Source: Clostridioides sp. (lineage in GTDB: Bacteria; Bacillota; Clostridia; Peptostreptococcales; Peptostreptococcaceae). Taken from it: a stretch of DNA of 64,000 nt. The notes below the pieces were generated by a model. It was not told the origin of the DNA. It made no database searches and was given only the letters and a program-made list of their open reading frames with translations. The position numbers were made by a program, and so were the translations under genes. This document shows positions 17,295 to 21,644 of this stretch, piece by piece. Position 1 is the first letter of the stretch; each line of letters starts with the position of its first letter. The stretch is from contig JAISJN010000005.1 of the NCBI GenBank assembly GCA_031261505.1, positions 62,001 through 126,000 of the forward strand, given 5' to 3'.

Positions 17295-17345
17295 AGACAC
17301 GTATAGGAAATAGAGGTAAGAGGAGGTACTATAGAAAATATCTTC

Positions 17346-17849
17346 ATGAGCCAAGTATCTAGATTTGGGTATTATTTGTGCTGTCTACTAGAGCAGTTAG
17401 ACAAGATATTTATAGAGATAGGAGTAGTGGTCGGGATAGGATTTCTACTTGGAGCGAGGTTTCAAATGGTGAATCCTATAGTTTTACTAGGTACATTAGC
17501 AATAGCGATATTTGTATTTTTTTCTATGTCGCTTTTCATATCTAGTATTCTCGTATTTACAAGGGAGAGTTACCTTACCTTAAATACGTTGTTCGTATTG
17601 ATTGATTTTTTATGTGGGACTATGTTCCCAGTTGAATTTTTAAATAAGTACCTGAGGTTTATAGCAAATATGTTTCCGCTTACACATATTCTTAGAATCG
17701 TCAGAGGAATACTAATAAATGGAGATAACGTTTTTATGTATTCGGATTCAATTTTATTTGTGATTGTGGAAAGTGCAGTCTTCTGTGTAGGAGGTTTGCT
17801 GTTTTTGAGGAAGATAGAATCCAGTATAGTTGAGAAGGTCTTGCTTTAG
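17346..17849 (+). pseudogene. ABC-2 type permease, C-terminal fragment
   Basis: The 167-residue frame holds four hydrophobic segments and the ABC-2 permease landmark FLCGTMFPVEFLNK followed by MFPLTHILRIVRGIL. Intact permeases of this kind have about 240-380 aa and six helices; the first helices are absent. The promoter and ribosome site immediately upstream suggest an internal deletion fused the 5' end to the middle of the gene. It forms a unit with the ATPase remnant downstream. Confidence 0.75.
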
Positions 17850-17958
17850 ATAAGCAATCTAGTTGTAAATAGTAAATAAAAAATGTAAATAAGATAATAA
17901 GGCTGTAGATAATACTGAAATACACTTAAGCTAGTCGATAGAATAGGGGGATGAGGTC

Positions 17959-18579
17959 CTGATAGCTAAAAATCTATGTAAGATGTATACAGCAAAAGCT
18001 AAAAAAGGAATTTTCGGTCGTGCAGATATTAGAAAAAAGGTAGCTGTGGACGATATCAGCATCGAAATAAAGAAGGGGCATATAACAGGGCTACTTGGGC
18101 TAAATGGAGCGGGAAAGACGACAACTATAAAGATGCTGACGACATTGCTGGCTCCAACCAGTGGAATAATTGAAATAGACTATGTGGATATAATAAAGGA
18201 TAAATTATACGCAAGAAACAAGATAAATCTGATAATGGGCGGTGAGCGAGGTGTGTACTGGAGGTTGACTGAGAGGGAAAATCTGAGGTACTTCGGTTCT
18301 CTGTACAAGATCAATCCAAAAGAACTAGATAGAAGAATTGAGGAGACCTTGGAAGTCGTGGGACTTCAAAAGGCAGCAGACATAGTTGTAGAAAAATACT
18401 CAAAGGGTATGAAACAAAGACTTCAGATAGCGAGAGGACTTATAAACAACTCAGAGTACCTATTCTTTGATGAACCAACACTCGGACTGGATATAGTGAT
18501 CGCCAAGGAACTCAGAAACCACATAAGAAAACTTGCCGATTAAAAAGATAAGGGAATACTGCTGACAACGCATAGTATA
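17959..18579 (+). pseudogene. ABC-2 transporter ATPase, N-terminal part (nonsense codon plus insertion)
   Basis: NatA-type ATPase with Walker A LLGLNGAGKTTTIKML, signature YSKGMKQRLQIARG and Walker B YLFFDEPTLGLD. The reading begins around CTG 17959 after GGGGGATGAGGTC (no ATG; the first ATG is 17983). An in-frame TAA at 18541 interrupts KLAD-KDKGILLTTHSI, where GAA would be expected. The gene is then broken at 18579 by the immunity island and resumes at 21297 with EDINELCDYIYVIDSGKIVL. Joined across the island, the H-loop and the following Cys-Asp motif have normal spacing. Confidence 0.88.
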
Positions 18580-18684
18580 AGCTATTCCTCTGCTGTTTTC
18601 ATACAGACTACAGCACATTCTACCCTCGTATTCAACATTTCTAGCTATTAGTATAGGTTCATCATCTTCTTTAATTTTTGACAT
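18580..18684 (-). CDS. Small protein at the island end (35 aa if island circularised)
   Basis: MSKIKEDDEPILIARNVEYE then GRMCCSLYENSRGIA, behind GGGGGGTGAGGTG. In the integrated state the frame runs out of the island into antisense ATPase sequence (to 18460). If the island ends were joined, GCT TA|A would create a stop exactly at the junction. No function is known. Confidence 0.45.
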
Positions 18685-18717
18685 CACCTCACCCCCCTGT
18701 TAAATTTTATGAGACTA

Positions 18718-18927
18718 TTAGTTTGTACTATTACAATCTCTTAAGTTTTCTATACCTTGTTTAATCACATCTGGGTCTAGTCTAGTCAAGTTTTGAACTA
18801 CCGTGCATGCGTCAACAGCAGCAGCTATCTTCTTAACTAATGACTTATCTAGAGTTAGCAGAGACTTTATAGCGTTTAAAAGTTCAGCATTGTCTGCTTC
18901 GTTATTGCTTATTTGTTTGCTTAACAT
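18718..18927 (-). CDS. Small helical island protein
   Basis: 69 residues, MLSKQISNNEADNAELLNAI onward, start chosen at ATG 18927 because AGGAGGTGCGACAG precedes it. A promoter is visible upstream (18963-18992). It seems helical, with two cysteines. Unrecognised. It is followed after about 30 bases by the 35-aa gene, so the two are probably one transcript divergent from the XRE gene. Confidence 0.55.
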   Translation of the reverse strand: MLSKQISNNEADNAELLNAIKSLLTLDKSLVKKIAAAVDACTVVQNLTRLDPDVIKQGIENLRDCNSTN

Positions 18928-18962
18928 CTGTCGCACCTCCTTTCTGTTTCGTTCTTGAGTCT

Positions 18963-18992
18963 ATTATATAGCCTCAAAGCATCATTAGACAA
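18963..18992 (-). promoter_or_regulatory. Promoter for the small minus-strand island genes
   Basis: On the minus strand TTGTCT, an 18-base spacer, then TATAAT, about 35 bases before the gene start. Confidence 0.6.
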
Positions 18993-19096
18993 CTGTTATT
19001 TTTAAACTTATATACGCTAAGTGTCTAAAGTGGCTACATTTCAATGATTTTAAGCAATAAAATTTATTTATTAACGACGCATTGAAGCGAAAACAG

Positions 19097-19125
19097 TTGC
19101 ATTGTAGCACAATTCAATATATAAT
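19097..19125 (+). promoter_or_regulatory. Promoter of the XRE regulator
   Basis: TTGCAT, a 17-base spacer, then TATAAT. The spacer and the flank hold related words (CATTGAAGC, CATTGTAGC, CAATTCAAT) that may be operator half-sites for the XRE protein. Confidence 0.65.
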
Positions 19126-19155
19126 AAGTTTATAGGTATGAAAGGTGGTGAAAAA

Positions 19156-19560
19156 ATGCAAATAGGCGAACGCTTGAAACAGATAAGAATTGAAAAAGGG
19201 ATATCGCAGCAGGAAATGGCTGAGAGGTTACGACTCAGTAGAACCGCAATATCTGGGTATGAGCTCGGTAGAAGGGATATATCAGAACGAATGATGGAAG
19301 ACATCTGCGATATATTTAATGTCAATTATAACTGGTTTGCGAACGGCGAGGGCGATATGTTCTATGAAATGTCAGATAAAGATATATTACTTGCAGACGC
19401 GTTGGGGGTTCTAGGTGACACAGAAGATGAAGATCTTATAGACTTAGTTATAGCTATATGTAATCTTGATAATCAATACATAAAGTTAATAGTTAATCTA
19501 ATTCAAAATGTCGATGAAGTATCCGATGCGATACTCACAATTAAAAAACTGTTACCATAA
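19156..19560 (+). CDS. XRE-family HTH repressor
   Basis: 134 residues. Cro/CI-type helix-turn-helix at about residues 5-58: IGERLKQIRIEKGISQQEMA, RLRLSRTAISGYELGRRDIS. The C-terminal half is acidic and helical, with no peptidase domain. ATG at 19156 follows AAGGTGGTGAAAAA; an earlier in-frame ATG lies within that ribosome site. It stands between two divergent units of the island and could repress the 18.7-kb genes, its own promoter, or both. Confidence 0.85.
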   Translation: MQIGERLKQIRIEKGISQQEMAERLRLSRTAISGYELGRRDISERMMEDICDIFNVNYNWFANGEGDMFYEMSDKDILLADALGVLGDTEDEDLIDLVIAICNLDNQYIKLIVNLIQNVDEVSDAILTIKKLLP

Positions 19561-19583
19561 ATAATTGGTAGCAGTTTTTTCTA

Positions 19584-19751
19584 TTACTTAAGATTTAATT
19601 GTTTCTCAATAATAGCTATCTTCTTCTCTTTAAGGCTTCTCCCGTTTATATCTAAGTAAGTAACTATTCTATATATGCGTTCCGAGCGAGTCAGTTTTAA
19701 AGCATTGTATTCGCTAATAATATTATTTAAGTTATCTTGATAATTTATCAT
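19584..19751 (-). CDS. 55-aa protein divergent from the S24 repressor
   Basis: Frame MINYQDNLNNIISEYNALKL, TRSERIYRIVTYLDINGRSL, KEKKIAIIEKQLNLK, stop TAA at 19584. AGGTTGAGA precedes the ATG. A near-consensus promoter (TTGACA-17-TATCAT) reads toward it and carries the repressor operator in its spacer. The fold looks like three helices, but I cannot recognise a standard HTH. By position it corresponds to a Cro or anti-repressor gene. It ends 23 bases from the XRE gene end, convergent with it. Confidence 0.55.
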   Translation of the reverse strand: MINYQDNLNNIISEYNALKLTRSERIYRIVTYLDINGRSLKEKKIAIIEKQLNLK

Positions 19752-19776
19752 TCTCAACCTACGTTTTATATTTACT

Positions 19777-19867
19777 ATGATAAACGATATATCGTTTTAT
19801 GTCAATAAAATAATTTATATAAATTTTACGATATATCGTCGACACATATCAAAACAAATGGTATTAT
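19777..19867. promoter_or_regulatory. Divergent switch: two palindromic operators on opposing promoters
   Basis: The perfect 12-bp palindrome ACGATATATCGT occurs at 19784-19795 and 19828-19839, centres 44 bp apart (about four helical turns). The minus-strand promoter TTGACA (19800-19805), 17 bases, TATCAT (19777-19782) contains the first palindrome in its spacer. The plus-strand promoter TCGACA (19839-19844), 17 bases, TATTAT (19862-19867) has the second overlapping its -35 box. This is the layout of a phage repressor-controlled genetic switch. Confidence 0.75.
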
Positions 19868-19874
19868 ATATCTA

Positions 19875-19930
19875 GAAGGAAGGAAGGAAGGAAGGAAGGA
19901 AGGAAGGAAGGAAGGAAGGAAGGAAGGAAG
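19875..19930 (+). repeat. (GAAG)14 tetranucleotide tract forming the repressor ribosome site
   Basis: Fourteen uninterrupted GAAG units, 56 bp, begin about eight bases after the -10 box of the repressor promoter; the last G is the first base of the GTG start. GGAAGGAAGG supplies the Shine-Dalgarno in several registers. The tract occupies nearly the whole untranslated leader, so unit gain or loss changes leader length without changing frame. Confidence 0.92.
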
Positions 19931-20592
19931 TGAATAGAAAAAAAATGAATAGAAACACAAAATTAAAGTTAAAGATAATTAAAGAATACGGAAGCATTAG
20001 CAAATTTGCTAAAGTCGTTGGCATACCTGCCAGCACAATAGCAAGTGCACTTGCTAAAGATATTGATACTATGAGTCTAGACAAAATAAGAAGGATCTGT
20101 AAAGAGTTAAAAATAGATATAGAAACATTGGAGCCACTAGACAGTGCCTTTGATACTATAACAAGTATTGGAGGTATGCAACTTACTACAAGTCATAAGG
20201 TTAAGATAACAGTACTCGGCTCTGTCGTCGCTGGTATCCCTGTGGAGGCGATTGAAGATATATTGGACTACGAGGAAATAGACTCAAGTCTTGCAAACAC
20301 TGGCGACTTCTTCGCCCTTAAGATTAAAGGTGCTAGCATGGAGCCACAATTTTTTGAGGGCGATGTAGTCATCGTAAGAAAACAGTCATACATCAATAGC
20401 GGAGAAATTGGCATAATGCTTGTCAATGGATCGGATGCAACAGTTAAAAAAATTAAAAAAGATAGGAATGGTATATTATTAATAGGTAATAATACAGAAG
20501 TATACTCACCGCACTACTATACTAATGAAGAAATTGAAACTTTGCCCGTGCGTTGCATTGGTAAAGTTGTAGAATTAAGAAGGAAATTTTAA
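19930..20592 (+). CDS. LexA/CI-type repressor with S24 autoprotease domain
   Basis: About 220 aa. N-terminal helix-turn-helix (YGSISKFAKVVGIPASTIAS), then a hinge and a peptidase S24 domain. The self-cleavage site is VVAGIP (Ala-Gly, about residue 97). The catalytic serine is in IKGASMEPQFFEGD (about residue 139) and the lysine in GSDATVKKIKK. This family is cleaved when RecA is activated, so the protein is expected to release its operators on DNA damage. The start is GTG 19930 at the edge of the GAAG tract or ATG 19945. The two palindromes upstream are its likely operators. Confidence 0.9.
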   Translation: MNRKKMNRNTKLKLKIIKEYGSISKFAKVVGIPASTIASALAKDIDTMSLDKIRRICKELKIDIETLEPLDSAFDTITSIGGMQLTTSHKVKITVLGSVVAGIPVEAIEDILDYEEIDSSLANTGDFFALKIKGASMEPQFFEGDVVIVRKQSYINSGEIGIMLVNGSDATVKKIKKDRNGILLIGNNTEVYSPHYYTNEEIETLPVRCIGKVVELRRKF

Positions 20593-20593
20593 T

Positions 20594-20629
20594 AAAAAAA
20601 GGACACTAATCCACAGTGCCCTTTTTTTT
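20594..20629. terminator. Bidirectional terminator between repressor and zinc-ribbon gene
   Basis: Stem AAAAAAAGG(A)CACT / AGTG(C)CCTTTTTTT with seven-base loop, T runs on both strands. Confidence 0.85.
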
Positions 20630-20636
20630 ATTACTA

Positions 20637-21152
20637 TTAGAAACCAGATACTTCCGCAAGTTCGTAGTGATCTACATCACCAGTAGCCGTACCTATGGCT
20701 TTGAATTTCCAATTTCCTTCAGCTTTTAGATTATTAACATTTGCTAAAGCTGTTCCGAGTTGGTTATTGTCCTTATCATACAAGTTAAAAGTCACTTGAA
20801 CGTACTTAGCGTCTTTTCCGCTATTGTTTTTTATCTTTCCAGATAAATCAACCCCGCCTAGAGCGTTAGTTTCCGATGTAATCTCTCCTACTATTTCATA
20901 CTTCTCTTTCTTTGGTTCTTCTTTTTTAGTTTCTGATGTTGCTTTAGTGCTAGTACCTGCCGTACTTGCTGTCGTGCTGGTACCACCGTTCCCAATTTTA
21001 CTAGCAATTCCAATCACTACTATAATAGCAAGTACTATAAACCATGGTTTCTTATATATTGGTTTCTTATTCTTGTGCCCACAGTTAGGACAAGCCTTAG
21101 CACTTGCGGACATTTCCTTTCCACATGCTTGACACTCTTTCATTTTTGCCAT
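20637..21152 (-). CDS. Zinc-ribbon, single-helix membrane protein with C-terminal FxLYD-like domain
   Basis: 171 aa. The N-terminal zinc ribbon is CQACGKEMSASAKACPNCGH (four Cys). One transmembrane helix follows at about 35-52 (WFIVLAIIVVIGIASKI), then a Thr/Ser/Lys-rich linker and an outer beta domain with VTFNLYDKDNNQLGTALANV, resembling FxLYD domains. Proteins of this build are often found beside phage and ICE repressors; a role in superinfection exclusion or stress sensing is possible but unproven. Start ATG at 21152 with AGGAGG upstream. Confidence 0.75.
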   Translation of the reverse strand: MAKMKECQACGKEMSASAKACPNCGHKNKKPIYKKPWFIVLAIIVVIGIASKIGNGGTSTTASTAGTSTKATSETKKEEPKKEKYEIVGEITSETNALGGVDLSGKIKNNSGKDAKYVQVTFNLYDKDNNQLGTALANVNNLKAEGNWKFKAIGTATGDVDHYELAEVSGF

Positions 21153-21296
21153 TTCTTCTATCCTCCTATTTTATATAATTCCAATCTATATTATAATACA
21201 AATAGTCAGAAATGTTAACACCTTGTATTCGATATTTTCTGCAAGTGCTGGTATTTAGCCATTTTATTCATACACTCATGATGATAGGATATATTA

Positions 21297-21644
21297 GAGG
21301 ATATCAACGAGTTATGCGACTACATATATGTAATAGACAGCGGAAAAATAGTTCTAGAGGGAAGCATAGAGGAGGTTAAAAAATCTTTTAACCAAACATT
21401 TGATTACAGAATAAGAATAGCAAATGAATTCGAAGATATAAGCAAGGATAGGCTAGCTAAAATAGAAGATTCCAGCTTTAAATACGAGGATGAGGACGGG
21501 GAGAAATACATAGAGCTAAAGTCAAAAAAGAACGTACTTCCAGAGGTATTAAATTCATTGATATTAGATGAGATAGAAGTCGATGAAGTGACAAAGTTGG
21601 CTGAGTACAATAGCAGAAAGACTGGAAGTTTCAATTTTTATTAA
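21297..21644 (+). pseudogene. ABC-2 transporter ATPase, C-terminal part (beyond the island)
   Basis: Open from the island boundary: EDINELCDYIYVIDSGKIVL, EGSIEEVKKSFNQ, then a regulatory C-terminal domain ending KTGSFNFY before TAA at 21642. It completes the ATPase fragment at 17959-18579. It has no start signal of its own. The codons after the break are still clean, so the insertion is probably recent compared with the permease truncation. Confidence 0.85.

Follow-up and report, generated by a model that had tools for sequence, protein, structure and literature searches.

A phage lysogeny-control region inserted precisely in an ABC-transporter ATPase gene of a clostridial genome, probably the remnant of a prophage

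Gene content and control elements of the locus

In the 64-kb window analysed here (G000:C12:62001-126000 of a 2.14-Mb clostridial genome), a drrA-like ABC ATPase gene is divided by an island of 2,717 bp, with no loss of target sequence. The island consists of a short gene piece, two divergent regulatory switches, each comprising a repressor gene and a smaller gene on the opposite strand, and the gene of a membrane protein (Table 1).

Table 1. Features of the island and its host operon, with positions in the window.
Feature	Position	Strand	Basis
First permease, pseudogene without residues 1-94	17313-17849	+	alignment
5' part of drrA-like ABC ATPase, pseudogene	17959-18579	+	in-frame TAA at 18541-18543
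Left-junction TA, part of target Ile codon ATA	18578-18579		sequence
Island, phage lysogeny-control region in the ATPase gene	18580-21296		L075 alignment
35 codons, probable 5' part of an early-operon gene, strong ribosome site	18580-18684	-	frame continues past the junction, antisense to the ATPase
72-aa phage protein, divergent from XRE	18718-18936	-	phrog_10926, E 4.6e-4; similarly placed relatives in L047 and L070
Promoter-like TTGTCT-18-TATAAT of the 72-aa gene	18963-18992	-	consensus match only
Two direct repeats CGCATTGAAGC / TGCATTGTAGC, candidate XRE operators	19078-19108		intergenic in the 72-aa/XRE pair
XRE (Cro/CI-type) repressor, 134 aa	19156-19560	+	PF12844, PF01381, phrog_8 1e-18
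Small gene, 55-57 aa, divergent from S24 repressor	19584-19757	-	no known family matched
Operator-like palindrome ACGATATATCGT, within the small-gene promoter (19805-19777)	19784-19795		sequence
Second exact ACGATATATCGT, at -35 of the S24 promoter (19839-19867)	19828-19839		sequence
Perfect (GAAG)14 tandem repeat, 56 bp, ending at the S24 GTG start codon	19875-19930	+	sequence
LexA/CI-type S24 repressor, 220 aa	19930-20592	+	PF00717 2e-24; LexA alignments
Membrane protein: N-terminal zinc ribbon, helix (residues 37-51), low-complexity linker, FxLYD beta domain (85-170)	20637-21152	-	NF038353 9e-22, phrog_14275 5e-51
Right-junction TA	21295-21296		sequence
3' ATPase part, fused with the C-terminal ~28 residues of the second permease	21297-21644	+	alignment

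The 35-codon frame at the left end is probably a truncated piece of a gene, and no relatives of it were found in phages, family genomes or IMG/VR. The adjoining 72-aa gene is a member of phage family phrog_10926, a point overlooked in an earlier sequence-only reading of this DNA. The XRE gene is followed by a terminator-like hairpin (19543-19580), and in a defence library its product gave generic HTH matches only. No close relatives of the XRE or the 72-aa protein were found in IMG/VR by single-protein search; an alignment search with XRE gave 48 loci, among which L109 repeats the arrangement 72-aa gene, XRE gene, integrase of the prophage L070 described below.

In the second switch, the promoter of the small gene reads TTGACA-17-TATCAT. 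The paired copies of ACGATATATCGT are candidate operators, arranged as in switches whose repressor regulates its own gene together with a divergent one; the operator pair had no match in IMG/VR. The S24 protein aligns with LexA structures, and it has the features of the LexA/CI type, namely an HTH, the Ala-Gly cleavage site (VVAGIP) and the Ser/Lys dyad, with Ser in GASMEP and Lys in ATVKK.

The (GAAG)14 array in front of the S24 gene was also overlooked in the earlier reading. No other GAAG array of even 6 units was present on either strand in 31 genomes (the genome itself and 30 relatives). The array is a reiterated Shine-Dalgarno-like sequence, the length of which could change by slippage. 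If the number of repeats varies between strains, which one assembly cannot show, this would be a phase-variable lysogeny repressor; a narrow literature search found no description of prophage repressors with a phase-variable (GAAG)n leader. The leader may perhaps be of more interest than the question of the island itself.

The full-length family of the membrane protein is phrog_14275, which has no annotated function, and its FxLYD domain was modelled with a pLDDT of mostly 86-93. It had been proposed as a possible exclusion protein; however, no tested exclusion protein was found to match it over its full length, and the annotation as a superinfection-exclusion protein is weak, since the matches to the exclusion families phrog_8545 and phrog_4980 are confined to residues 26-98, where the helix and the linker lie. 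A relative with 51-55% identity is encoded in another genome (G002), outside any recognisable prophage.

Insertion site and decay of the host operon

Removal of the island joins cat-agt-ata to gag-gat-atc (TTHSI-EDINELCD), the ATPase junction predicted in the sequence-only reading. The reference for the empty site was L075 (G059:C24), the sole close uninterrupted ATPase ortholog in 71 family genomes, which is 53% identical and has no internal stop. By tblastn, residues 1-207 of L075 match the window ungapped to base 18579 (LLTTHHI vs LLTTHSI in the window), and the right-hand ATPase piece restarts in register at 21297, where L075 residue 208 falls on the gag codon (EDINELCDY in the window vs IDVEEMCDY in L075). 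Therefore, no codon was gained or lost at the insertion point. The precise insertion is confirmed, and this empty site is the strongest part of the earlier observation.

Apart from the island, the host operon carries three other lesions, all of which had escaped notice: the nonsense codon of the ATPase gene, which lies upstream of the island, the truncation of the first permease, and the deletion of the second permease except for its tail, which is joined to the ATPase C-terminus (RKTGSFNFY vs KKVGSFNFY). The entire three-gene ABC-2 exporter operon (17313-21644) is a pseudogene through lesions that are independent of the island. The decay of the host operon shows that nothing constrains this locus to remain intact, a point in favour of the prophage remnant discussed below.

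TA is indeed present at both junctions, as had been stated. It is weak as evidence, because inserts and targets picked at random from the window overlap by at least 2 bp at their junction in 18% of cases. When the junctions were compared as att sites, TA was all that both had in common and there was no longer repeat, and neither terminal inverted repeats nor direct repeats at the junctions rose above shuffles; for the terminal inverted repeats, the best match of the ends scored 6, against a median of 7 in the shuffles. A TA-inserting transposon of the IS630/mariner type was rejected, as it should have terminal inverted repeats. Joining the ends of the island does close the 35-aa frame (GCT-TAA), which had been read as a sign that the circular form is ancestral; however, as this frame ends in T, arithmetic from base composition leads one to expect an immediate TAA, TAG or TGA in about 1 of 5 cases, which puts the stop codon within chance. 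Farther inside, a subterminal inverted repeat (18634-18654 and 21196-21216; 18 of 21 bases) lies 54 and 80 bp from the ends, and when the terminal 150 bp were shuffled 1000 times, only one shuffle reached its score; it was picked post hoc among many in the island, and one of its arms is within the 35-aa frame.

Kinship with prophages and origin of the island

The left switch, with the 72-aa gene on the minus and the XRE gene on the plus strand, recurs as the same divergent pair in two prophages from the family, both of which carry an integrase. In L047, from the same genus (Metaclostridioides mangenotii), an antirepressor gene, the pair, a zinc-ribbon gene and a tyrosine integrase adjoining asnS are present, and in L070, from a Clostridioides-like genus (g28), the antirepressor gene and the pair are followed by a tyrosine integrase. 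Both prophages have an antirepressor, replication genes and a tyrosine integrase, whereas the island has none of these. The right half has its own counterparts: in the clostridial locus L059, the genes for S24, a zinc-ribbon FxLYD protein and an integrase are consecutive on the plus strand, and the nearest S24 relatives adjoin large serine recombinases (L071 and L073). Comparison of the island DNA with phage records gave no match. Overall, homologs of temperate-phage genes stand in phage-like order in both neighbourhoods, 72-aa/XRE and S24/zinc-ribbon, and there are no integrase, structural or lysis genes in the island, which supports the earlier claim of a phage-type immunity cargo with no recombinase inside.

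It appears probable, at roughly two chances in three, that a temperate phage was once inserted precisely in the ATPase gene and that the island is what its decay has left, the immunity region. Such a phage would have entered the ABC-transporter ATPase gene by means of its integrase, and later deletions would have cost it the integrase gene and those for replication, structure and lysis, so that the immunity region stayed behind, with two repressor switches (72-aa/XRE and 55-57-aa/S24) and one surface-protein gene. None of the relatives proved to have a larger prophage at this position, and we therefore infer the decay from gene content. In its favour, only 35 codons remain where L047 and L070 have the antirepressor of the early operon, and neither a large serine recombinase nor a credible terminase was found elsewhere in the genome; the terminase search gave weak partial matches, with a profile that also matches 13 of 14 control genomes. 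Against it, the island holds no att site, integrase fragment or further phage gene, no single relative was seen to combine S24 with the XRE/72-aa pair, and a history of decay requires a deletion with its end at the left junction or no more than tens of bp away.

The same ends could also be explained by a fragment of phage DNA that was captured, through TA microhomology, as a double-strand break in the already dead ATPase gene was repaired, in which case no prophage ever resided at this site. The genes to the left of the 72-aa/XRE pair in L047 and L070 belong to the early operon in the interior of the phage, and the left end of the island therefore looks like a cut, as it would in a truncated prophage, and not like a natural prophage end; on the right, the expected integrase is missing, so that both ends resemble cuts in a phage genome. 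An overlap of 2 bp fits chance or microhomology joining, and there are no att-like repeats. However, end-joining usually removes or adds target bases, and none were lost here at codon resolution. We consider capture by break repair unlikely.

The prophage remnant looks like a known kind of leftover rather than a new type of mobile element. In the dic region of Qin, a cryptic or 'grounded' prophage of E. coli K-12 that keeps its immunity region (PMC10448788, PMC6832061, PMC6379469), a phage repressor and divergent small genes are likewise left after the loss of integration and lytic genes. Compared with that region, the island is smaller (2.7 kb), has two adjoining repressor switches and lies in an empty site that is still readable. 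It would offer a clean snapshot of late prophage decay, in which the immunity region is the last to remain, the target site can be read to the codon, and the switches look functional.

Possible immunity function and searches for mobility

The repressors and their candidate operators are intact in sequence and may still confer immunity to related phages. In this case, the XRE and S24 repressors would bind their operators and silence the early promoters of an incoming related phage, and self-cleavage stimulated by RecA would probably lift the repression by S24. Should related phages still be blocked, the island would be an example of how bacteria keep only the protective part of a prophage. Whether selection has kept the region as a domesticated anti-phage device, whatever its origin, is a separate proposal that is compatible with a prophage remnant; it is possible but doubtful. 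All full-length frames are open, and the promoters and paired candidate operators are intact, within an operon that otherwise decays. On the other hand, there are no close homologs from which selection could be measured, the exclusion annotation rests on helix and linker, and the full-length relative in G002 is not part of a recognisable prophage.

The sequence-only reading had suggested a mobile unit that could be a satellite or a domesticated superinfection-immunity device; a self-standing mobile unit or satellite is not supported. As an integrase-less satellite, the island would be inserted at TA by a recombinase acting in trans, and its joined ends would be its natural circular form. The precise insertion, the TA at both ends, the closure of the 35-aa frame and the subterminal inverted repeat agree with this scheme, and the genome does contain an orphan phage-type tyrosine integrase (C18:46125-47261; L081:8125-9261). 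However, chance can account for the TA and the stop codon, and the repeat was chosen afterwards. The searches also spoke against mobility: no second copy of the island was found in its own genome or in the family, the circular junction formed by the joined ends is absent from IMG/VR, and terminal repeats were lacking. No large serine recombinase (PF07508) was detected in the genome, and the region of the orphan integrase has no convincing att sequence in common with the island ends (12-mers or shorter). A satellite is therefore quite improbable. An element mobilised by a large serine recombinase was rejected, as neither the island nor the genome has such an enzyme.

PICIs and other satellites resemble the island in being compact, with a phage-derived regulator and possible immunity; EcCIMP1, for example, contributes to superinfection immunity (PMC11773190). 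A PICI-type satellite was nevertheless rejected, because the island, unlike these elements, has no integrase, no primase or replication genes, and no helper- or capsid-interference genes. More improbable still is a combined scheme, in which a 2.7-kb element that consists only of the two switches and the surface-protein gene is moved by a recombinase acting in trans, shields the host against related phages and tunes S24 through a hypermutable (GAAG)n leader.

The orphan integrase lies between housekeeping genes and adjoins a chorismate mutase-like gene and aroC. A match of island bases 14-45 near it on C18 falls within aroC and was dismissed as coincidence. A decayed tyrosine-integrase fragment with several stops (L083; G000 C15:2054-2305) is a relic of another prophage or element. 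In the window, polA and coaE are 4 kb from the island; one of the S24 relatives with a large serine recombinase (L073:28-8469) is located just downstream of polA and coaE, and this common proximity is probably a coincidence.
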